Source: Rhodothermales bacterium
Lineage (GTDB): Bacteria; Bacteroidota; Rhodothermia; Rhodothermales; VXPQ01
Reading direction: 5' to 3'
DNA length: 64,000 nt
Assembly: GCA_951812345.1 (NCBI GenBank)
Contig: OX638295.1
Coordinates: forward strand, 1,956,965-2,020,964
Shown: positions 34,204 through 45,547 of the stretch, piece after piece
How positions within the stretch are numbered: the first letter of the stretch is position 1
Layout: the number at the start of each line of letters is the position of its first letter
Position numbers and translations under genes: made by a program
Notes under the pieces: model-generated
Told to the model about the DNA's origin: nothing
What the model saw: only the letters and a program-made list of their open reading frames with translations
Database searches by the model: none

Positions 34204-34927
34204 GATGTCCTCACAATGTGCGTTAGTAAAGCCCGCGATTCAGGCAATGCGGCCAATGCGCCGGAACTTCGAAACAACCATCTCTGCTCCTGCCTCCGCC
34301 TCTGACCCACCCCGGCATGGTAAACGTAAGAAATGGAAAGCAGCGACGCATCTTTTTTAGGAAATTATCCGAAAAGATTGACGGATGCCTTGTCGGTTGC
34401 CTGCCGCCAACGTTCTGTATGGCGAGAATTTCCCTGCCATTGCGTCCGCCACACGGCCTATTTGCTCCGGCGTATCCAGATTTCTTATGCCTTGGCGACG
34501 CTTGCGACACCCCTTCCGACATGGAGTTTTTTCGATGCGCGCTTGTTCGCTCTCCCGCCGCCCACATAGGCCTCGTCAACCTCGACATGGAAAATTTTCG
34601 CCAGGAACTTGACAACCGACATCCGGTAATGTAATTTCACAGAGCCACCGCTAATTAATAGCGTCCTGAGCGCAAGTGCGCTGTGCGTTTCCAAGCTGTC
34701 ATCCTCAAAAAAGATGGTACACACGTACCCACTACCGGACCATGATTACAAATAAGCATCGAGCAACCCGTTTTGCAAATCATAACGATGCGTCTTTCGA
34801 CGCGCTCCATATCGGCCGTCGCATCGTAGCCCACCGCTTGCGCCGCACGTTCGCCTTTCTCCTTCGACCGGTGGCGGTTGCTTCGCTGGTCGCATCCGCA
34901 ACGGACGCAGAAGGGAACGGTTCTTCA
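34204..34927. other. Long gene-poor region with IS1595-type scrap
   Basis: About 720 bases between the divergent oxidoreductase and giant surface-protein genes. An IS1595/ISXO2-like transposase relic occupies about 34485-34590 on the reverse strand. Small palindromes occur near 34648-34662 (CGCTA / TAGCG) and 34672-34687 (AGCGCA / TGCGCT). In-frame codons from 34676 reach into the giant gene but read as low-quality sequence, so I assign the start at 34928. Confidence 0.6.
34485..34590 (-). pseudogene. IS1595/ISXO2-like transposase fragment
   Basis: Reverse strand, about 34 codons reading FHVEVDEAYVGG, then NKRASKKLHVGRG before a stop at 34485-34487. This matches the EVDE(T)Y(V/I)GG...NK...KKL..GRG segment around the first catalytic Asp of IS1595-family transposases. 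Sequence on both sides has lost resemblance, so it is a deep relic. Confidence 0.7.
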
Positions 34928-37900
34928 ATGAGAATCCGCTCTGCGCGACAAGGCATTGGCGCACTGATCGCCGCCGCCTTATTGCTCGGCTTCACGACAT
35001 CGGCGCAAGCCCAAGTGACGGCCGACGCAGGCATGGACCAGACCGTTGCAGAGGGTGCGACGGTGACCCTGAACGGTTCGGGTACGTCGACGGTCACGAA
35101 TCCCACACTGACCTACACCTGGGCAAACATCCGAGGAAGTATCACGCTGTCGAGTACCACGGAGCAGTCGCCGACGTTCACGGCGCCGAGTAATCTTCCG
35201 AACGACTCGTTGCTCCAGTTCGAGCTGACGGTGAGCGACGGGACTAACTCCGAGAAGGACACGGTCGATGTGACGGTCAATGCGGCTCCCAGTGCCAACG
35301 CAGGCAGCGACCAGACCGTTGCGGAGGAGGCAGCGGTGACGCTGAATGGGACCGCCACCGACCCCAGCATTCCTGCCGATAATCTGACCTACAGCTGGGC
35401 CTCCATCCTAGGAGGTATCACGCTGTCGAGTCCCACTGCGCAGATGCAGATGTTCACGGCGCCGAAGGATCTTTCGAGTGACTTGTTGCTCCAGTTCGAG
35501 CTGACGGTGTCAGACGGGATTAACTCCGTGAAGGACACGGTCGATGTGACGGTCAATGCGGCTCCTGTGGCCGACGCAGGCATGGACCAGACCGTTGCGG
35601 AGGAGGCAGCGGTGACGCTGAATGGGACCGCCACCGACCCCAGCATTCCTGCCGATAATCTGACCTACACCTGGGCAAACATCCGAGGAAGTATCACGCT
35701 GTCGAGTACCACGGAGCAGTCGCCGACGTTCACGGCGCCGAGTAATCTTCCGAACGACTCGTTGCTCCAGTTCGAGCTGACGGTGAGCGACGGGACTAAC
35801 TCCGTGAAGGACACGGTCGATGTGACGGTCAATGTGGCTCCTGTGGCCAGCGCAGGCAACGACACGACGGCGGTGGAGGGAGAGATTATGCAGCTGCAAG
35901 GTTCGGGCACGGACAACAGCTTCCCCCAGGATCAGCTGACCTACACCTGGGCCACCATCCGAGGAAGTATCACGCTGTCGAGTACCACGGCGCAGTCGCC
36001 GACGTTCACGGCGCCGAGTAATCTTCCGAACGACTCGTTGCTCCAGTTCGGGCTGACGGTGAACGACGGGCTGCAAGACTCCGCGGAGGACACAGTCGAT
36101 GTGACGGTCTATGCGGCTCCTGTGGCCGAAGCAGGCCGCGACACGACGGTGCTGGAGGGGGCGACGATGGTGACGCTGAGGGGTTCGGGTACGGCAAGTG
36201 ATGGCATTACTCCGCTGATCAACCCGACCTACGCCTGGACGGCTCCGGAGGGTATCACGCTCATGCCGGATAATACGGTGGCGGAGCCGACGTTCACGGC
36301 GCCGACGGGGTTTGGAAAGGACTCGGTGATGGTGTTCTGGCTGACGGTGAACGACGGGGTGCAAAACTCCGCGGCGGACTCGGCGTTGGTGACGGTCTGG
36401 GCGGCTCCTTTGGCTGAAGCAGGCCGCGACACGACGGTGGCGGAGGGGGCGACGATGGTGACGCTGAGGGGTTTGGATAGTAGGGTTGTTACGGCCAACA
36501 CGGCTGCCAATGCGACGGTGACCTACGCATGGACGCCTCCGGCGGGGATCACGCTCACGGATAATAATGTGGCGGAGCCGACGTTCGACGCGCCGGCTGG
36601 GTTTACTATGTCGGACTCGGTGCTGACGTTCTGGCTGACGGTGAACGACGGGCTGCAAAACTCCGCGGCGGACTCGGCGGTGGTGACGGTCAATGTGGCT
36701 CCTGTGGCCAACGCAGGCGTCGACACGACGGTGGCGGAGGGATCGACGGTGACGCTGAACGGGAGTCAAAGCTACGACCTCAGCGACCCCGAGGATGCGT
36801 TGACCTACACCTGGAGCTCCCGCGACGGTATCACGCTGTCGAACGCCGCGGCGCAGAATCCGACGTTCACGGCGCCGGATGAGTTTGAAGAGGACTTGAT
36901 GACGCTGGTGTTCAGTCTGACGGTGAACGACGGGCGGCAAGACTCCGAGGAGGACATAGTGGTGGTAACGGTCAAGCCGGCTCCTGTGGCCGACGCAGGC
37001 CCAGACCAGACGGCGGTGGCGGAGGGGGCGACGGTGACGCTGGACGGGAGTGGAAGCACGAACAACCTGAATAGCGGTCCGCTTGAATACACCTGGGAGT
37101 CCTCGGATAATAATATCTCGCTGGATTCCCCGACGACGATGACGACGACGTTCACGGCGCCGACGGGGCTTGAAGAGGACTTGGTGGTGACGGTCTGGCT
37201 GAGGGTGAGCGACGGGGTGAACACCTCCGCGAGGGACACGGTGGTGGTGACGGTCAAGCCGGCTCCTGTGGCCGACGCAGGCCCAGACCAGACGGCGGTG
37301 GCGGAGGGGGCGACGGTGACGCTGGACGGGAGTAACAGCATGAACAACCTGAATAGCGATCCGCTTGAATACACCTGGGACTCCCGGGATGCGGTGTTGA
37401 ATTCCACGACGACGATGACGACGACGTTCACGGCGCCGACGGGGCTTGAAGAGGACTTGGTGGTGACGGTCTGGCTGAGGGTGAACGACGGGGTGAACCA
37501 CTCCGCGGCGGACACGGTGCTGGTGACGGTCAAGCCGGCTCCTGGGGCCGACGCAGGCCCCGACCAGACGGTGGCGGAGGGGGCGACGGTGACGCTGGAC
37601 GGGAGTAACAGCATGAACAACCTGAGCAATGAGTTGGTGGCCTTCGACTGGGATTTTCCGGAGGGTATCACGCTGTCCGATAGTACGGTGGCTATGCCGA
37701 CGTTCGAGGCGCCGACGGGGCTTTTGAAGGACTCGGTGCTGACGTTCACGCTGACAGTGAACGACGGGGTGAACGACTCCGAGGCGGACATAGTGCTGGT
37801 GACGGTGTCGAAGGACAAAGCGGTGCTGATCGCGTTCTACGATTCGACCAACGGGGGCGATTGGGAAAGAAGTGACAACTGGGGCACTAACGCCGCCCTC

Positions 37901-40741
37901 GATACGTGGTTCGGCGTCTCCACCGACGACGCCGGACGGGTGGATTCTCTGAGCCTCCATGAAAACTCCCTGGAGGGTTCGATCCCGGCGATGCTGGGCG
38001 AATTGACCAACCTCACGACACTTACTCTCAATAACAACAGGCTGACGGGGGCGATCCCGGCGGAGCTGGGCGACTTGACCAACCTTGAAGAACTGTATCT
38101 CCACCAAAACTCCCTGTCGGGTTCGATCCCGGCGGCGTTGGGCAACTTGACCAGCCTAAAATATCTGATTCTCAGGCTCAACTCCCTGTCGGGTTCGATC
38201 CCGGCGGAGTTGGGCGACTTGACCAACCTCGAGAGACTGCGTCTCGAGGATAACTCCCTGACGGGTTCGATCCCGGCGGCGTTGGGCAACTTGACCAACC
38301 TCACGCACCTGGATCTCCACAACAACGACCTGACGGGGCCGATCCCGGCGGAGTTGGGCAAACTGACCAACCTCGAGAGACTGCGTCTCGAGGATAACTC
38401 CCTGACGGGCTCGATCCCGGCGGAGTTGGGCTACTTGACCAACCTCGATAGACTGTGGCTCCACAACAACGACCTGACGGGATCGATCCCGGCGGCGTTT
38501 AGCAACTTGAGCAATCTCACGCACTTGTATGTCGACAACGGGCTGTGCGTGCCGGGAGATACCGAATTCCAGGAATGGCTTGGCTATCTCGAGGAATTCT
38601 CAGGCGACAGCGATAACATCTGCATTGTCGCCGTGCCGGCGGTTCGATCCAGGATTCTCCGCGTGGGTGGAGGGCCCGTTACCATTGACCTGGATAAAGA
38701 GTATCCGTACGATTTGGGGGCAGACTGGAGTATACGTCACTACCGCGTGGGGGACGACGACCCGGTGAACAATCCCGGCCATTCGTTTACGGTCGAGTCG
38801 TACGCCAACGTCGTCCTTACCGGCAATGAGCTCACCTTGGATCCGATTTCGGCAGGCGCATTCGAGCTCGCTGCGGATCCGGATGCGAGTGTGGAGGGCG
38901 ACGAGAAACTCATCCTTGTGGAAGTGATGTCCGCCGATGCGCCCGTGCTGATACGAGAGGATATTGCCGGGGGAGAAGAGTACAATGCGCAAGCCCAGAG
39001 CCATACGGATCCGGTAATGCTGACGACAAGAGAGGTAGAGAAAATGTCGAAGACACTGGAGCTTCGCGATTACTTCTACGATCCGAACCATGTCTCCCTG
39101 ACCTACGAAGCCAGCGCCGATAAAGTGGGCGCTGGCGACGATGCGGTCGATATCGTAACGGCGACGGTATCGGGTTCCAAGCTGACGATCGCACTTACGG
39201 ACCAGGCGCAAGGTGGCGAATCGACCAACGTTTGGGTGACTGCGACGGACGGCGCCGGCGAATATGCCCGGTTGCAAGTTGTTGTGGCCGTGTCCGGGAC
39301 AACCGGACCGTATGTCGTAGCGCCGCTTGCGGATTGGACATTGCGGGAAGACGACGATACGGACACCACGATCGGCGATCTGGGCGACGGATTCGTGGAT
39401 GACGACCTGGGCGGGCGTTCGCTGGAGTTGACGATCGACATCGATGACGATACGGCCATAAAAGTGGGCGACGGCGACCGCTTTACGTGGGTTACGGAGT
39501 ACATGACGGCGACAGTCGATCTGGCTGAGGAGACCTTGACCGTCCGTCCGCTTAGGAAGGGCGCGAACACCTTTACGGTGACCGCCACGGACAAGGGAGA
39601 GCCGACGTACGTCTGTCCTGCCGGGTATGTGACAAACGACAATCCTGTAACGGCAACCTCTACCTGTACGAAGGACGGCGAGCCGGACGAGACCGCCAAA
39701 GCGGGGTATCCGGACGCCCAATCCATATCGGATTCCTTCACGGTGACGATCGTGAGCGAGACTACGCCGGCCGTAGCGCAGGCTATTCCTGACCAGGAAC
39801 TGGATGCCGACGGCGACGCCGCAACGGTGGATCTGGCGGATTTGAACGGCGACGCAGCCGGCGAGCCGGCTGCGTTCGGAGATCCTGCGATGAGCGGCCT
39901 CACGTATACGGCGAGCAGTGCGGACAGCACCGTGGTGGAGGTAGCCGTGCAGGGCTCCGTCATAACGCTTACGCCCGTGTGGCGTACGGACGAGGCATCT
40001 ACCGACGTTACGGTGGTGGCTACGAACCCGAACGAAGAAGCCATCTCGCAAAGCTTCGACGTGACGGTCCACGGCGCCACGTTCCCGGTCGTGCGGACCG
40101 TCATCGAGGATATTACGCTGAATACGGGCGATCCTGCGACGGTTCTGGATTTACGGAATCTGTCGGGCGGAAAAGAGGCCGATCCCGCTTTCCTGGATCC
40201 GAATGCGAGAGCGGGCGACGGGCTTCCCGGAGGGTTGCTCTACGAGATGGATGTGTCGGCCGATCACATATCGCCGTCGAGCACCGCGACCTATGTGATC
40301 ACCTCGGCCATGGAGTTGACGCTGGATCCATCCGAGGCCACGCTGACGATCTTGCCGCTCGGGCACAACTCGGCCCAGGTCACGCTTACGGCGACCGATC
40401 GCGAGAAGGAGGAGGTTTCGCAGACCTTTACGGTCGACGTGATTTCGGTTACCGGCACGGAAGACGAGGAACTGCCGACGGAGGTTGAACTCTCTCGGAA
40501 CTACCCGAACCCGTTCAACCCGCAAACGACCATAGACTACGCTTTGCCGCAGGCGGGCGACGTGAGCCTGATCGTATACGACATGCTGGGGCGCGAGGTG
40601 GAGGTGCTCGTCGACGGTCCGAAGACGGCAGGTCGTCACACGGTGCGTTTCGGTGCGAACGACTTGCCGAACGGCGTCTACGTGTATCGCCTGGCGGCGG
40701 GCGAGAAGACGATCGTGCGCACGATGGTTCTTGTCAAGTAA
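34928..40741 (+). CDS. Giant secreted protein: ten PKD-like repeats, leucine-rich repeats, T9SS sorting domain
   Basis: The protein is 1937 residues. A clean signal peptide (MRIRSARQGIGALIAAALLL, cleavage near AQA, residue 28) argues for this start over in-frame ATGs at 34676 and 34742. Ten Ig/PKD-like repeats of about 92 residues follow (about 29-960), each of the form ADAGxDQTVAEGATVTLxGS...YTW...FTAP...LTVNDG...DTVxVTV. Eight plant-type leucine-rich repeats of 24 residues (about 1000-1205, LxxNxLTGSIPAxLGxLTNL) come next, then cadherin/Ig-like modules. The C-terminal T9SS domain (about 1847-1937) has NYPNPFNPQTTIDYALP and ends in the basic MVLVK. Likely an outer-surface adhesin or matrix-binding protein. 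Stretches of repeats are identical at the DNA level. Confidence 0.9.
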   Translation: MRIRSARQGIGALIAAALLLGFTTSAQAQVTADAGMDQTVAEGATVTLNGSGTSTVTNPTLTYTWANIRGSITLSSTTEQSPTFTAPSNLPNDSLLQFELTVSDGTNSEKDTVDVTVNAAPSANAGSDQTVAEEAAVTLNGTATDPSIPADNLTYSWASILGGITLSSPTAQMQMFTAPKDLSSDLLLQFELTVSDGINSVKDTVDVTVNAAPVADAGMDQTVAEEAAVTLNGTATDPSIPADNLTYTWANIRGSITLSSTTEQSPTFTAPSNLPNDSLLQFELTVSDGTNSVKDTVDVTVNVAPVASAGNDTTAVEGEIMQLQGSGTDNSFPQDQLTYTWATIRGSITLSSTTAQSPTFTAPSNLPNDSLLQFGLTVNDGLQDSAEDTVDVTVYAAPVAEAGRDTTVLEGATMVTLRGSGTASDGITPLINPTYAWTAPEGITLMPDNTVAEPTFTAPTGFGKDSVMVFWLTVNDGVQNSAADSALVTVWAAPLAEAGRDTTVAEGATMVTLRGLDSRVVTANTAANATVTYAWTPPAGITLTDNNVAEPTFDAPAGFTMSDSVLTFWLTVNDGLQNSAADSAVVTVNVAPVANAGVDTTVAEGSTVTLNGSQSYDLSDPEDALTYTWSSRDGITLSNAAAQNPTFTAPDEFEEDLMTLVFSLTVNDGRQDSEEDIVVVTVKPAPVADAGPDQTAVAEGATVTLDGSGSTNNLNSGPLEYTWESSDNNISLDSPTTMTTTFTAPTGLEEDLVVTVWLRVSDGVNTSARDTVVVTVKPAPVADAGPDQTAVAEGATVTLDGSNSMNNLNSDPLEYTWDSRDAVLNSTTTMTTTFTAPTGLEEDLVVTVWLRVNDGVNHSAADTVLVTVKPAPGADAGPDQTVAEGATVTLDGSNSMNNLSNELVAFDWDFPEGITLSDSTVAMPTFEAPTGLLKDSVLTFTLTVNDGVNDSEADIVLVTVSKDKAVLIAFYDSTNGGDWERSDNWGTNAALDTWFGVSTDDAGRVDSLSLHENSLEGSIPAMLGELTNLTTLTLNNNRLTGAIPAELGDLTNLEELYLHQNSLSGSIPAALGNLTSLKYLILRLNSLSGSIPAELGDLTNLERLRLEDNSLTGSIPAALGNLTNLTHLDLHNNDLTGPIPAELGKLTNLERLRLEDNSLTGSIPAELGYLTNLDRLWLHNNDLTGSIPAAFSNLSNLTHLYVDNGLCVPGDTEFQEWLGYLEEFSGDSDNICIVAVPAVRSRILRVGGGPVTIDLDKEYPYDLGADWSIRHYRVGDDDPVNNPGHSFTVESYANVVLTGNELTLDPISAGAFELAADPDASVEGDEKLILVEVMSADAPVLIREDIAGGEEYNAQAQSHTDPVMLTTREVEKMSKTLELRDYFYDPNHVSLTYEASADKVGAGDDAVDIVTATVSGSKLTIALTDQAQGGESTNVWVTATDGAGEYARLQVVVAVSGTTGPYVVAPLADWTLREDDDTDTTIGDLGDGFVDDDLGGRSLELTIDIDDDTAIKVGDGDRFTWVTEYMTATVDLAEETLTVRPLRKGANTFTVTATDKGEPTYVCPAGYVTNDNPVTATSTCTKDGEPDETAKAGYPDAQSISDSFTVTIVSETTPAVAQAIPDQELDADGDAATVDLADLNGDAAGEPAAFGDPAMSGLTYTASSADSTVVEVAVQGSVITLTPVWRTDEASTDVTVVATNPNEEAISQSFDVTVHGATFPVVRTVIEDITLNTGDPATVLDLRNLSGGKEADPAFLDPNARAGDGLPGGLLYEMDVSADHISPSSTATYVITSAMELTLDPSEATLTILPLGHNSAQVTLTATDREKEEVSQTFTVDVISVTGTEDEELPTEVELSRNYPNPFNPQTTIDYALPQAGDVSLIVYDMLGREVEVLVDGPKTAGRHTVRFGANDLPNGVYVYRLAAGEKTIVRTMVLVK
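35014..37812 (+). repeat. Ten tandem ~276-bp PKD-like coding repeats
   Basis: Direct tandem repeats inside the giant gene. Repeats 1 and 3 share about 140 bases without a difference (35112-35253 and 35664-35805). Repeats 2 and 3 share their first third, and repeats 8 and 9 share GTGGCCGACGCAGGCCCAGA and the following bases. Differences cluster elsewhere, which points to recent duplication or gene conversion. Confidence 0.85.
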
Positions 40742-40816: not shown

Positions 40817-40996
40817 TGCCGTTTATGAGCGATGGAGTGGCTAAAGACGGCGCTCATAATGCGGTCCGAGGGGGTCCGCATCCGAACCGGATGGCCCCGG
40901 AGGGCGCATCCTTTTTTGCAATTTTCGTGAAAACAAAATTTTTTTCGCTTTAATCTATTACAACAGGAATGAAAGCGCTTCCTGTATAAAAAAAAT

Positions 40997-41025
40997 TTGC
41001 CTTACAACATTCCGTGCAGTATAAT
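40997..41025 (+). promoter_or_regulatory. Sigma70-like promoter of the leader RNA
   Basis: TTGCCT (40997-41002), a 17-base spacer and a perfect TATAAT (41020-41025). Transcription would begin near 41032. The box quality is far better than in most Bacteroidota promoters, so it is worth testing. Confidence 0.7.
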
Positions 41026-41031
41026 TGCGCC

Positions 41032-41374
41032 TTACTTGTGCAAGGGCGCTTATTCAACGACTTGAATTCCCGAGCCCGGCGCAGTACAACCAAAACCATA
41101 CGCGTTCCCGTGCCCATGCATGGTTTCATTCATACGGCGGATCCTTCTACCTCCTTTGCGCCCTGTGCGTACAAGGATCGCCTGCCGGTGAATATGCTAA
41201 TGCGTATATCTTTATGTATGTGTATGCAGGGCATGACCCGCACTACGAAACCTCTGGAGGGATCAGGACAAACCTGACGATCCTGTACTACCTGAGAATG
41301 CGCAGTCGATGCGCGCACTTGACGGTCGCCCAAGATACCAACCCGCTTCCCCTCAAAGGTAAGCGGGTTTTTTT
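41032..41374 (+). ncRNA. Candidate structured leader RNA or stand-alone ncRNA upstream of sulfite reductase
   Basis: Between the promoter and the intrinsic terminator, several stems are visible. GGGCG (41044-41048) pairs with CGCCC (41327-41331) as a closing helix, flanked by CTT/AAG. AAACCAT pairs with ATGGTTT (41093-41099 with 41120-41126). GATCCTTCTAC pairs with GTACAAGGATC (41140-41150 with 41169-41179, one C-C mismatch). GGAT/CAGG pairs with CCTG/ATCC (41260-41267 with 41273-41283, three-base bulge). It looks like a multi-branched RNA closed by a P1 helix. I could not match it to SAM, TPP or cobalamin riboswitches, RNase P, tmRNA, SRP RNA or 6S RNA. A cis-acting switch for cysteine or siroheme genes is the likeliest reading. 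Confidence 0.5.
41340..41374 (+). terminator. Intrinsic terminator / attenuator before sulfite reductase
   Basis: AACCCGCTT (41340-41348) pairs with AAGCGGGTT (41361-41369) and is followed by a run of T. It lies 58 bases before the sulfite reductase ATG, the usual place for an attenuator. The earlier GACCCGC (41235-41241) could pair with the 3' arm as an alternative fold. Confidence 0.82.
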
Positions 41375-41432
41375 GTGACCGTTTTTCGGCTTCTCGCACG
41401 CTTCGAGTGTTTATACCCACACCCCTTGATAT

Positions 41433-43304
41433 ATGTCTTCCAAAAAAATAAAAACAGGAAAACCTGTCCTTCCGACTCCGATCCCGCAACAAACCGACGC
41501 GCAGGGAGGCGGGCAGAAAAAGTCCTCCCTGTTGCCCGACAAGAGAAAAGGCGGTCCGGATTCAGGGGATCAGGTCAGGGCGCCGCGGTCGTTGGGGTTG
41601 GAGCATATAAAAACCGCCGGACGGAACCTGCGCGGAAACCTGCTGGAAAACCTCCGCGATTCCGCCGAACACTTCGACGAAACGGGAAAACAGCTCCTGA
41701 AATTCCACGGAATCTACCAGCAACGAGATCGGGACAATAAAAAGGGGGGCAAGCGATATATGTTCATGGTGCGTTCGCGAATCCCTTCCGGGCGCCTCAC
41801 GGCAGACCAGTATCTGGTGCACGATATGCTTGCCGATCGCTATGGCAACGGAACGCTTCGCATCACAACCCGACAGGGAATTCAGTTGCACGGCGTAATC
41901 AAGACAAATCTGAAGGGTACGCTGCGCGCGATCAACGATATCCTGCTGACGACCCTCGCCGCATGCGGCGATGTAGTGCGAAATACGATGTTGTCGCCCG
42001 CCCCGGCCACCCATCCCGTGCACGAAGCGATCGAACTCGAAGTAAATCGCTTGGCGGAAGCTTTGCTACCCCGGACGCGCGCCTATCACGAAGTGTGGCT
42101 CGAAGGCGATAAAGTGTATAACAGCCTCTCCGAAACGATCCGGGAACGCCCCGTGAACGATCGCCGGGAAATAACAAACGAAGAGCCGCTGTACGGCCAA
42201 GCGTATCTGCCGCGAAAATTTAAAATAGGCGCAGCCTATCCCGGCGACAATAGCATCGATGTTTATACGCAGGATGTGGGTCTTATCGCCATCGTCGAAA
42301 ACGAAACGCTCGCCGGATTTAACCTGCTCGCCGGGGGCGGACTGGGTATGACCCACAAGAAGCCGCAAACGTACCCTCGTCTGGGAAGCCCGGTCGGTTT
42401 CGTGCCCACCTCGAAACTGATCGAGGTCGCAAGCGCCATCGTCACGATACAGCGAGATCATGGAGATCGAACGAACCGACGTCATGCCCGCATGAAATAT
42501 CTGATCGACGATTGGGGACTCGACCGGTTCGTTCGCGAATTGGAAAGGCGGCTTGGCTATTCTCTCGAACCGCCGCGGAACACCGGCCCGCTGGAGAACA
42601 ATCTGTACCTTGGCTGGCGAAAACAACTGAACGGACGCTGGTTTTTCGGCCTTTCCGTAGAAAACGGGCGCATCATGGATACGGACAGGGTCCGACTCAA
42701 ATCAGGATTGAAAGCGATTGTCGAGCGGTTTCGACCCGGAGTACGACTCACCCCCAATCATGACATCCTGCTCACCGACCTGGACGGAGCCGTACGCACG
42801 GAATTGAACGATCTGCTCGACAAGTACGGTATTGTCCGCCCTGCCAAACTGTCGAATGCCCGGAAATACTCCATGGCCTGTCCGGCGCTGCCGACCTGCG
42901 GTCTTGCGCTGAGCGAGTCCGAGCGGGTCCTGCCCAAGGTGATCGACCTCCTCGAGAAAGAACTGGAAAAGCTGGGCTTGCAGGACGAACTCCTGTCGAT
43001 CCGCATGACCGGCTGCCCCAACGGGTGCGCCCGCCCTTACGTAGCCGATATCGGACTTGTGGGGCGATCTCGCGATCGATACGCACTGTTCCTCGGAGGG
43101 CGATCCGACGGTACACGCCTGAACAAACTTTTCAAAGACCTTGTGCCGCTCGACGAGATTGTCCCCGTACTCCGCCCTGTTTTGTATGCGTTTCTAAAAG
43201 AAAAGCAGGCCGGAGAGCAATTCGGCAACTACTGCGCACGAATCGGAAACGAAGAACTTGACCGGATCGCCGAAAAATATCGAAACCATGCACAACCGAC
43301 CTGA
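41433..43304 (+). CDS. cysI: Assimilatory sulfite reductase hemoprotein
   Basis: The 623-residue protein reduces sulfite to sulfide with six electrons at a siroheme-4Fe4S centre. The four cluster Cys are at 483 and 489 (ACPALPTCGLALSESER) and 528 and 532 (MTGCPNGCARPYVADIGLVG). The substrate/siroheme half is marked by RITTRQGIQLHGV and RTNRRHARMKYLID. A long Lys- and Gln-rich N-terminus (about 1-50) is unusual. No cysJ flavoprotein gene is near, so electrons may come from ferredoxin. It heads a five-gene forward operon with the siroheme and APS-reduction genes and sits behind the terminator-bearing leader. There is no clear ribosome binding site before the ATG. Confidence 0.95.
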   Translation: MSSKKIKTGKPVLPTPIPQQTDAQGGGQKKSSLLPDKRKGGPDSGDQVRAPRSLGLEHIKTAGRNLRGNLLENLRDSAEHFDETGKQLLKFHGIYQQRDRDNKKGGKRYMFMVRSRIPSGRLTADQYLVHDMLADRYGNGTLRITTRQGIQLHGVIKTNLKGTLRAINDILLTTLAACGDVVRNTMLSPAPATHPVHEAIELEVNRLAEALLPRTRAYHEVWLEGDKVYNSLSETIRERPVNDRREITNEEPLYGQAYLPRKFKIGAAYPGDNSIDVYTQDVGLIAIVENETLAGFNLLAGGGLGMTHKKPQTYPRLGSPVGFVPTSKLIEVASAIVTIQRDHGDRTNRRHARMKYLIDDWGLDRFVRELERRLGYSLEPPRNTGPLENNLYLGWRKQLNGRWFFGLSVENGRIMDTDRVRLKSGLKAIVERFRPGVRLTPNHDILLTDLDGAVRTELNDLLDKYGIVRPAKLSNARKYSMACPALPTCGLALSESERVLPKVIDLLEKELEKLGLQDELLSIRMTGCPNGCARPYVADIGLVGRSRDRYALFLGGRSDGTRLNKLFKDLVPLDEIVPVLRPVLYAFLKEKQAGEQFGNYCARIGNEELDRIAEKYRNHAQPT

Positions 43305-44106
43305 ACATGGAACCGTCTATCTTGTAGGCGCGGGACCCGGAGATCCTGATTTAATCACCGCAGGCGGGCTCCGCCTTCTCCGCCATGCGGAGGTAGTGGT
43401 ATTCGACAGACTCGTCCATTCCGATCTTCTGGATTGCATCCGCATGGACGCCGAACGCATCTATGCCGGAAAAGCACCCGGGGAGCATTCCATGCCCCAG
43501 GAAGCGATTAATCGTATACTCATCGACCGGGCTCGGCGATACCGGAGCGTGGTTCGCCTGAAAGGAGGCGATCCTTTCGTATTTGGACGCGGCGGCGAAG
43601 AATGCCTTGCACTTGCCGAGGCGAACATCCCGTTTCAGGTGATCCCCGGCGTTTCGAGCGCGATCGCTGCGCCAGCCTTCAGCGGTATTCCCGTCACGCA
43701 CCGCAACATATCCCCCGCATTCACTGTCGTAACGGGTCATTCGTGCACGGCCAGCCGTTCACCGGACTGGAATGCGCTGGCGCGCGTGGGTACCCTGGTC
43801 ATTTTGATGGGCCTTGGCCGCCTCGACTGGATTGCCGGACAATTGATCGGGGCAGGGCTCGATCCTGAAACTCCGGCAGCAATCGTCGAATCCGCCGCAA
43901 CCCAAAACCAGAGAACTGTGTCCGGAACACTCAGGACCATCGGTCTGCTAAGTCTCGGATGCTCCGCACCCGCAACCATCGTTATAGGCGAAGTGGTATC
44001 GCTTCATTCCCGAACAACATGGTTTAACAAAGAACTCGTATTTTCAGGTGGAGCGTTGCATGATTCGTTCGTTCACAATCAACCCCCAACTGCTTCTGTA
44101 TTATGA
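43288..44106 (+). CDS. cobA: Uroporphyrinogen-III C-methyltransferase (SUMT)
   Basis: The 272-residue enzyme methylates uroporphyrinogen III twice with S-adenosylmethionine to give precorrin-2, on the way to siroheme. Diagnostic parts are VYLVGAGPGDPDLIT at the start, VVVFDRLVH, VVRLKGGDPFVFGRGGEE, VIPGVSSAIAAPAFSGIPVTHR and VTGHS. ATG 43288 overlaps the sulfite reductase stop by 17 bases, which fits coupled translation; an in-frame ATG at 43258 would overlap more. The C-terminal 25 residues extend past the usual end. It supplies siroheme for the neighbouring sulfite reductase. Confidence 0.93.
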   Translation: MHNRPEHGTVYLVGAGPGDPDLITAGGLRLLRHAEVVVFDRLVHSDLLDCIRMDAERIYAGKAPGEHSMPQEAINRILIDRARRYRSVVRLKGGDPFVFGRGGEECLALAEANIPFQVIPGVSSAIAAPAFSGIPVTHRNISPAFTVVTGHSCTASRSPDWNALARVGTLVILMGLGRLDWIAGQLIGAGLDPETPAAIVESAATQNQRTVSGTLRTIGLLSLGCSAPATIVIGEVVSLHSRTTWFNKELVFSGGALHDSFVHNQPPTASVL

Positions 44107-44825
44107 TTTTGACACAAAACGAAATCCGTGAAGCGAACATGCGGTTGGAGCATGCCTGGCCGGAAGACGTACTCGCATGGACCTTCGAAACCTTTGGTTC
44201 GAACGTGGCCACGGGTACCGGCTTCGGCCTGTCCGGCGTGGCGTTGATGCATATACTTTCGCGCGTCCGGCCAACCGCTATCGTATTCTATCTGGACACG
44301 GACCTGCTCTTCCCCGAAGCATACGACCTGAAAATCCAGCTCGAAAAGCGCTTGGGAATTAAAATTCTTCGTCTTCATTCGGAACTATCCCTGCGAGATC
44401 AGGCGGCCCGGGAAGGTGACAATCTATGGCGAATCAATCCGGATCGTTGCTGTTTTCTTCGCAAGGTGCAACCGCTCAGGCAATTTCTGGCCTCGAAAGA
44501 CGCCTGGGTCACTGCTGTCCGGCGCGACCAATCCCCCACGCGTAGAAATACTGCGGTCGTGGAATGGGAGCCCATCCATAATCTTGTCAAGATCAATCCA
44601 ATGGCATCCTGGACAGACCGGGATGTCCGACAATACATAACCCTGCACGAACTGCCCTACAACCCAATGCATGACTGGGGCTACCCGAGTATCGGCTGCA
44701 TTCCCTGCACAAAACCTGTCAAGAATGGCCAGAATATTCGTTCGGGCCGCTGGCAGGAGCACGAGAAAATGGAATGCGGAATTCATTCGTATGGCATCGA
44801 GGAAAAAACGCTCGGCGGCCGATGA
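44103..44825 (+). CDS. cysH: Phosphoadenylyl/adenylyl sulfate reductase (iron-sulfur type)
   Basis: This 240-residue protein reduces APS (or PAPS) to sulfite using thioredoxin. Cys116-Cys117 (DRCCFLRKV) and Cys199/Cys202 (IGCIPCT) are the four 4Fe4S ligands typical of bacterial APS reductases and absent from E. coli-type PAPS reductase. Cys225 in MECGIHSYG is the catalytic thiol. YLDTDLLFPEAYDL and SWTDRDV match the family. The ATG overlaps the cobA stop (ATGA). No ATP sulfurylase gene is in the window. APS is the likelier substrate given the cluster. Confidence 0.92.
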   Translation: MILTQNEIREANMRLEHAWPEDVLAWTFETFGSNVATGTGFGLSGVALMHILSRVRPTAIVFYLDTDLLFPEAYDLKIQLEKRLGIKILRLHSELSLRDQAAREGDNLWRINPDRCCFLRKVQPLRQFLASKDAWVTAVRRDQSPTRRNTAVVEWEPIHNLVKINPMASWTDRDVRQYITLHELPYNPMHDWGYPSIGCIPCTKPVKNGQNIRSGRWQEHEKMECGIHSYGIEEKTLGGR

Positions 44826-45547
44826 ACATGTACCCGGTATGGCTTAGCGACCTTGGGCGAAGACAATGCGTCGTCTTCGGAGGAGGGCACGACGGAGAAA
44901 CCGAACGCAAGGTCCAGGAACTTCTGGCGTGCGGCGGCCACATAAAAGTGGTCAGCCCCTCTTTTTCGAAAAGGCTCGCCGCACAGGACCGGGTCGAATG
45001 GATTCCTCGGGCATACCGCTGCGGTGACCTCGATGGCGCTTTCCTCGTCATCGTCTGCGAGACCAATCCTTCGCAAACGAGACCTATCTGGGAAGAAGCG
45101 CAGCAGAAAAACGTATTGATAAACGCCATGGACGACATCCCCCATTGCACGTTCGTGGCCGGATCGGTCGTACGGCGCGGCAAACTGGCCTTGTCCATTT
45201 CCACCAGCGGCGCAGCGCCGGCGCTCTCCGTGCGGCTGCGTCAACGCCTGGAAACGGAATTCGGGACCCATTACGAGACATTTCTCGATTGGATGGCGGC
45301 CATGCGCAAACCGATGTCCATCCGATATCCGGATTTCGACGTAAGAAAGGGTATCTGGTACGCTATTGTCGATAGCGATGTGCTGGAATTACTCAAGGAA
45401 GAACGGACCGAGGACGCCGTGCAGCGCCTGATCGCTCTCGCTGGCCAGGAAGTGGTGGCAAATGCAAAAATCGGTCGGGCAGCATCCCGCGCGCGCGTAC
45501 ATCGCACTCGGGTGCAACTCGAAGCAGCAGAAGAAAAATATCCATGA
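44822..45547 (+). CDS. Precorrin-2 dehydrogenase / sirohydrochlorin ferrochelatase (Met8/CysG N-terminal type)
   Basis: The protein is 241 residues. The N-terminal Rossmann domain reads MYPVWLSDLGRRQCVVFGGG, then ERKVQELLACGGHIKVVSP, as in the NAD-binding domain of siroheme synthase. SISTSGAAPALSVRLRQRLE is the conserved dimer/active-site helix that contacts precorrin-2. It oxidises precorrin-2 and may insert iron to complete siroheme. The ATG at 44822 overlaps the cysH stop (ATGA); a second Met at 44828 could also start it. With cobA it makes the siroheme needed by the sulfite reductase at the head of the operon. Confidence 0.88.
   Translation: MNMYPVWLSDLGRRQCVVFGGGHDGETERKVQELLACGGHIKVVSPSFSKRLAAQDRVEWIPRAYRCGDLDGAFLVIVCETNPSQTRPIWEEAQQKNVLINAMDDIPHCTFVAGSVVRRGKLALSISTSGAAPALSVRLRQRLETEFGTHYETFLDWMAAMRKPMSIRYPDFDVRKGIWYAIVDSDVLELLKEERTEDAVQRLIALAGQEVVANAKIGRAASRARVHRTRVQLEAAEEKYP

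Follow-up and report, generated by a model that had tools for sequence, protein, structure and literature searches.

The window, the whole stretch of 64,000 nucleotides that was analysed, spans contig positions 1956965-2020964 of a Rhodothermales genome (G000) and carries on its plus strand four consecutive genes whose predicted products assign them to an operon (sir-cobA-cysH-cysG) for sulfate assimilation to sulfide plus cofactor supply. The first gene, sir (41433..43304), encodes the assimilatory sulfite reductase hemoprotein subunit and matched NCBIfam NF010029 with 721 bits at a cut-off of 457. It is followed by genes for a uroporphyrinogen-III C-methyltransferase of the cobA/cysG C-terminal type (43258..44106; NF004790, TIGR01469), for the phosphoadenylyl-sulfate reductase CysH (44103..44825; NF002537, TIGR00434) and for a siroheme synthase N-terminal domain of the cysG N-terminal type (44774..45547; TIGR01470, 113 bits, cut-off 62). 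The region 34676-40741, just upstream of the unit described below, codes for a repeat protein of 2021 aa, part of which resembles leucine-rich repeats and which ends in a T9SS sorting tail; among the other genus members, only G003 had this protein within the stretch compared before sir.

Between this gene and sir, a unit of promoter, leader RNA and terminator was analysed by comparing four distinct genus members, the window genome (G000), G005, G002 and G001. The promoter is of the sigma-70 type (TTGCCT, 17 nt, TATAAT; 40997..41025, plus strand; 10/12 matches to the pattern) and is present as originally predicted, placing the transcription start probably near 41032. Promoter-like sites numbered 2 in 3 kb compared with 1.3 +/- 0.9 in shuffles, and as these counts are similar, the bare pattern is weak evidence; in three relatives the promoter was retained as TTG(C/T)(C/A)T combined with TATAAT, TATCAT or TATACT. 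An imperfect palindrome centred on AAAGCGCTT is located just upstream of the -35 box (40966-40986) and was also retained in the four genomes, making it a possible transcription-factor site.

The proposed structured leader, here about 340 nt long, was borne out: the 339-nt stretch folded better than its shuffles (z -2.77, 1/100 shuffles equally good), and its conserved 5' part (41032..41199, plus strand) contains several hairpins. The intrinsic terminator (41340..41374, plus strand) consists of a hairpin at 41340-41369 and a U-run at 41368-41374 and is found, again as predicted, 58 nt upstream of the sir start at 41433. Its stem displayed one compensated change from C-G to U-A among the relatives, with 97.7% of cells paired. 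A further hairpin, GCGCA/UGCGC, lies between the leader stop codon and the terminator (41300..41314, plus strand) and showed a two-sided change in one of the four sequences and a broken pair in another. The suggested closing helix of 41044-41048 with 41327-41331 can be drawn, but by eye the alignment revealed that one of its pairs is broken in G005 and that the other sequences offer nothing beyond changes to G-U, so that it is not established. RNAalifold predicted 102 pairs for the four sequences with almost no covariation, so that no specific global fold is supported, and covariation within the genus is too thin for structural proof. The gap between terminator and sir (41375-41432) was also well conserved and may contain a small hairpin, CTCGCAYRCTTCGAG.

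Conservation in front of orthologous sir genes, as anticipated, was evident: among the other genus members, the four that carry sir all had the leader directly in front of this gene, with identities of 100, 82, 77 and 75%. In the sixth genome of the genus, G004, leader and sir were both missing from an assembly that is 95% complete, possibly reflecting a loss of sulfite reduction in this genus member. As the leader occurred only together with sir and was jointly missing in G004, it is to be regarded as a cis element of sir and not as a free-standing RNA. In all probability, the leader and terminator unit thus acts in cis on the sulfite-reduction operon, and it would respond to sulfur nutrition. 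A stand-alone small RNA gene that precedes sir by chance would likewise have its own promoter and terminator, and for Sinorhizobium an action in trans of terminated trp leaders has been described (PMC7298713). However, the leader was never encountered apart from sir, and other families have a Cys/Met leader at the same position, so that we consider a gene of this kind the least probable of all explanations.

Outside the genus, no leader homologues were detected among 99 relatives, and when a conserved pattern of 21 bases was run against 85,000 genomes, it returned four same-genus MAGs and no outside homologue; matches of this pattern in unrelated taxa were treated as chance, and phage records contained a single chance match. 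In agreement with the earlier finding that core motifs of SAM-I and several other known RNAs are absent, no Rfam family, riboswitches including SAM-I and T-box among them, matched the window leader at the gathering score. At E<=10 none of the matches was credible, and the weak ones, to BcKCsr2, anti-hemB, RybB and P17, all included the terminator hairpin. SAM-I (RF00162) was found neither in the window nor in the genus leaders searched, and 6S RNA was rejected as there was no RF00013 match in the window or anywhere in the genome.

The original prediction had further stated that no protein fits this region, which turned out to be wrong. A short leader ORF on the plus strand (41200..41277) encodes MRISLCMCMQGMTRTTKPLEGSGQT and ends with the TGA codon at 41275-41277, the frame reading …MRISLCMCMQGM…GQT before the stop. 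The ATG at 41200 is the preferred start, with GGUGA at 41187-41191, and across the genus a GGUGA, AGGAA or GGGAA stretch lies upstream of it; an in-frame ATG at 41116 is the alternative, and the start codon is accordingly uncertain. The frame is open in the four distinct genus members, whose peptides are MRISLCMCMQGMTRTTKPLEGSGQT (G000), MRMSLCMCMRGMTRNTPLPEGLQQT (G005), MRMRMSACMCMCMCMRAMTRNTTPLEGLRRT (G002) and MRMRRSVCMCMCMRAMTPNTTPLEGLRRT (G001), each followed by a stop codon. When the ORF is taken from 41116, the longer of its two versions, indels within it comprised 3, 12, 18 and 6 nt, all multiples of three, compared with 1, 1, 12, 1 and 1 nt outside of it. The most length-variable part of the leader is a run of Cys and Met codons, which changes in whole codons. 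In the window, these putative regulatory codons are UGU AUG UGU AUG (Cys-Met-Cys-Met; 41215..41226, plus strand), where codons 6 and 8 of the short ORF specify Cys, in alternation with Met; G001 has three regulatory Cys codons and G002 has four (CMCMCMCM). Substitutions in the leader ORF showed no third-position excess among the genus members, so that selection on the peptide itself is not established. Attenuator leaders are usually conserved in their regulatory codons only. Another Cys-containing frame through 41150-41170 (FYLLCALC) was rejected, as the window has no ATG upstream of it and G005 interrupts it with an in-frame stop.

Clustering of these codons was scored for Cys and Met together, requiring two or more Cys within eight codons, against 2000 shuffles. 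Equally good clusters occurred in 1 (G000), 2 (G005), 0 (G002) and 0 (G001) of the shuffles within the genus. As the score was chosen after the genus had been seen, other families provide the fairer test, and here the numbers were 0 for G012, 2 for G010, 0 for G234, 2 for G233, 18 for G232, 20 for G049, 65 for G092 and 308 for G106. Combining one genome per family resulted in p ~2e-10 for Cys plus Met and ~2e-4 for Cys alone. By Cys count alone, the window was not unusual (627 of 1000 shuffles), and the corresponding numbers were 27 for G002 and 0 for both G012 and G010.

Within the order, sir was carried by 10/114 genomes, and the five of these outside the genus have Cys-rich short ORFs upstream of sir. 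In G012 and G010, the leaders before sir, MVTRSSIAPVGLPRQVCCMCLCDGMCMCCCDAYASACTRMGHAGALRGSGT and MRFHRLSIACNASAGCPCGACGCMCMPPLPSPASGLGLEDERT, both end in a stop codon and are followed by a terminator. Altogether, four other families of the class have Cys/Met-rich leader ORFs of unrelated sequence in front of sir, with the motifs CCMCLC…MCMCCC, CGCMCM, MCCM and MEICLC and with a terminator following in three. Three genomes of family f14 have the MEICLC leader downstream of a SAM-I riboswitch (RF00162) with terminator (67-70 bits; L069 742-885, L070 685-815, L071 3866-3997 on the minus strand), which constitutes two sulfur sensors in tandem before sir and a sister-family solution of the same task. 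The class-wide search also yielded four MCCM-containing leaders in family f20, each followed by a terminator. In this family, GRUGGUGGU within the ORF forms 11-12 bp with GCURCCAUY of the terminator, and G-C to A-U differences between G232 and G226, as well as between G234 and G233, are compensated. Outside the class, no convincing Cys leaders were found, and sir there usually follows a close upstream gene.

These findings bear on the suggestion of an undescribed riboswitch, which would sense a sulfur or siroheme metabolite and operate the same terminator without translation. The strongly conserved and structured 5' half, the sulfur genes downstream and the occurrence of SAM-I before sir in f14 would be in line with such an element. 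However, it had no Rfam match and no RNA homologue outside the genus, its length varies most in the run of Cys/Met codons, by whole codons at a time, and other families retained the leader-peptide architecture on unrelated RNA sequence, which together render a riboswitch very unlikely. Of the original prediction, the un-annotated cis leader thus stands, along with its probable link to sulfur; its reading as a riboswitch or stand-alone ncRNA is not supported, as a Cys/Met leader peptide explains the sensor best. A candidate for a new riboswitch is thereby removed and a directly testable mechanism takes its place.

A putative antiterminator strand is contained within the leader ORF itself. The segment CCUCUGGAGGGA (41251..41262, plus strand), within the last 27 nt of the ORF, can pair with UCCCCUCAAAGG (41348-41359, plus strand), which belongs to arm and loop of the terminator and is thus common to both structures. 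The predicted duplex reached -24.0 kcal/mol in G002 (0/1000 shuffles) and -21.1 kcal/mol in G001 (2/1000), and is thus strong in these two, and was ordinary in the window (-15.0 kcal/mol, 232/1000) and G005 (-11.6 kcal/mol, 595/1000); in the genus alignment, 91.7% of the cells of this helix were paired. The complementarity is accordingly strong in two of four genus members and partial in the window. Since neither the Cys count nor the antiterminator of the window is exceptional compared with shuffles, the case for the window is based on homology to G002 and G001 and on the Cys plus Met score. In prefix folds, which ended at the terminator loop and began where a ribosome halted at the last Cys codon would leave the RNA accessible, the arm paired with the ORF segment in all four sequences, and with the ribosome at the stop codon only the terminator formed (P 1.00 in all four). 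With a stalled ribosome and the complete terminator, equilibrium favoured the terminator in G000, G005 and G001, indicating that the switch there must be kinetic. In all families where it was measured, the last Cys codon is 36-54 nt before the stop. Going by the size of the ribosome footprint, about 41257-41290, and hence most of 41251-41262, would be hidden once the ribosome is at the stop codon.

The frame-keeping ORF, the Cys/Met cluster, the terminator and the position before a cysteine-biosynthesis operon are the sequence features which make it highly probable that the unit is a ribosome-mediated transcription attenuator of the trp type responding to Cys/Met. RNA polymerase would start near 41032 and transcribe a leader whose short peptide is encoded with a cluster of Cys and Met codons. 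With an ample supply of charged tRNA-Cys, and perhaps of tRNA-Met, the ribosome would reach the stop codon at 41275-41277 and cover most of 41251-41262, so that the terminator at 41340-41374 could form and transcription would end before sir. When charged tRNA is scarce, the ribosome would stall on the UGU/AUG codons at 41215-41226, leaving 41251-41262 free to pair with 41348-41359. Once this antiterminator had formed, the terminator would come too late, and sir-cobA-cysH-cysG would be transcribed. Translation of the leader, stalling and read-through are presumed steps of this scheme, and a response to Met is suggested by the codon content only.

The conserved 150 nt at the 5' end are not required by the attenuator mechanism. 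An additional function of this domain (41032-41199) on top of the Cys/Met attenuator, such as codon shielding, polymerase pacing or a second sensor, is conceivable, as this block of about 150 nt, which precedes the leader ORF, equals the rest in conservation and as the invariant stretch 41097-41105 is complementary to the Cys/Met codons at 41218-41226 over 9 bp in all four sequences. This helix is invariant, however, so that no covariation signal is possible, and the leaders of f8, f6 and f20, where the ORF is much closer to the promoter than in the genus leader, seem to manage without such a domain; we therefore regard a function of this kind as rather unlikely. Less likely again is a more elaborate arrangement in which Cys and Met supply would be read through the alternating codons and gated by the codon-pairing 5' RNA domain with an input of its own.

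The proposed attenuator shares with those of the trp/his type the promoter, the short ORF with codons for the operon's own product, the intrinsic terminator and a predicted alternative helix in which the rising arm of the terminator takes part. It differs from them in the alternation of Cys with Met, in the putative antiterminator strand, which lies within the ORF, 12 nt ahead of the stop codon and not after it, in the long conserved 5' part and in its clade, the Rhodothermales. Cys-codon leaders before actinobacterial cys operons were reportedly described by Canestrari et al. in 2020. In Actinobacteria (Mycobacterium, Propionibacterium), Cys-codon leaders precede cys operons without terminator hairpins (PMC1262725); like the window, they have a run of Cys codons in a short ORF before sulfur-assimilation genes, but the window has an intrinsic terminator, for which a competing antiterminator can be drawn. 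For the uORFC-8-2 motif upstream of cysS in Rhodobacterales, which combines a tandem-Cys short ORF with an intrinsic terminator, ribosome-mediated attenuation has been proposed (PMC8632094). Membership of the window leader in this alpha-proteobacterial motif was rejected, as it precedes sir and not cysS and has its Cys codons at positions 6 and 8, in alternation with Met, whereas uORFC-8-2 has tandem Cys near position 14-15. In the wider Bacteroidota, leader-peptide attenuation of amino-acid operons is described for Flavobacterium psychrophilum, where the available text names no cysteine or sulfite-reductase case (PMC9723704). SAM-I (RF00162), which is not in the window, controls sir in f14 of the same order from a position upstream of the Cys leader. 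Searches of an open-access library yielded no leader-peptide attenuation of sulfite reductase or in Rhodothermales. The unit would thus be a new case of a known type of mechanism, with an unusual Cys-Met alternation. The leaders of f1, f6, f8, f14 and f20 suggest that, in this class, sulfite reductase is usually under ribosome-mediated attenuation where sir heads the operon, with leader sequences so different that RNA-family searches miss them. Cys-Met alternation and the tandem of SAM-I and Cys leader in f14 offer natural comparisons of codon and metabolite sensing at the same gene.

Similar elements were searched for at other amino-acid operons of the genus. At the thresholds used, no His or Leu leaders were identified before hisG and leuA. 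Upstream of trpE in the window genome (C1:1944221), a frame containing HAGGWWRRSPDSG with tandem Trp codons ends in a stop codon and is followed by a terminator (L123, about 1150-1320), and likewise in L122 and L119 (minus strand); this element is probably a trp attenuator. G001 and G002 are without the trp leader and have a gene close upstream of trpE. In the window genome and two relatives, the part of the ORF after the two Trp codons pairs with the terminator arm, and 34, 2 and 4 of 1000 shuffles gave an equally good pairing. Judged from these pairings, the genus appears to use attenuation with an antiterminator strand inside the ORF for tryptophan, too.
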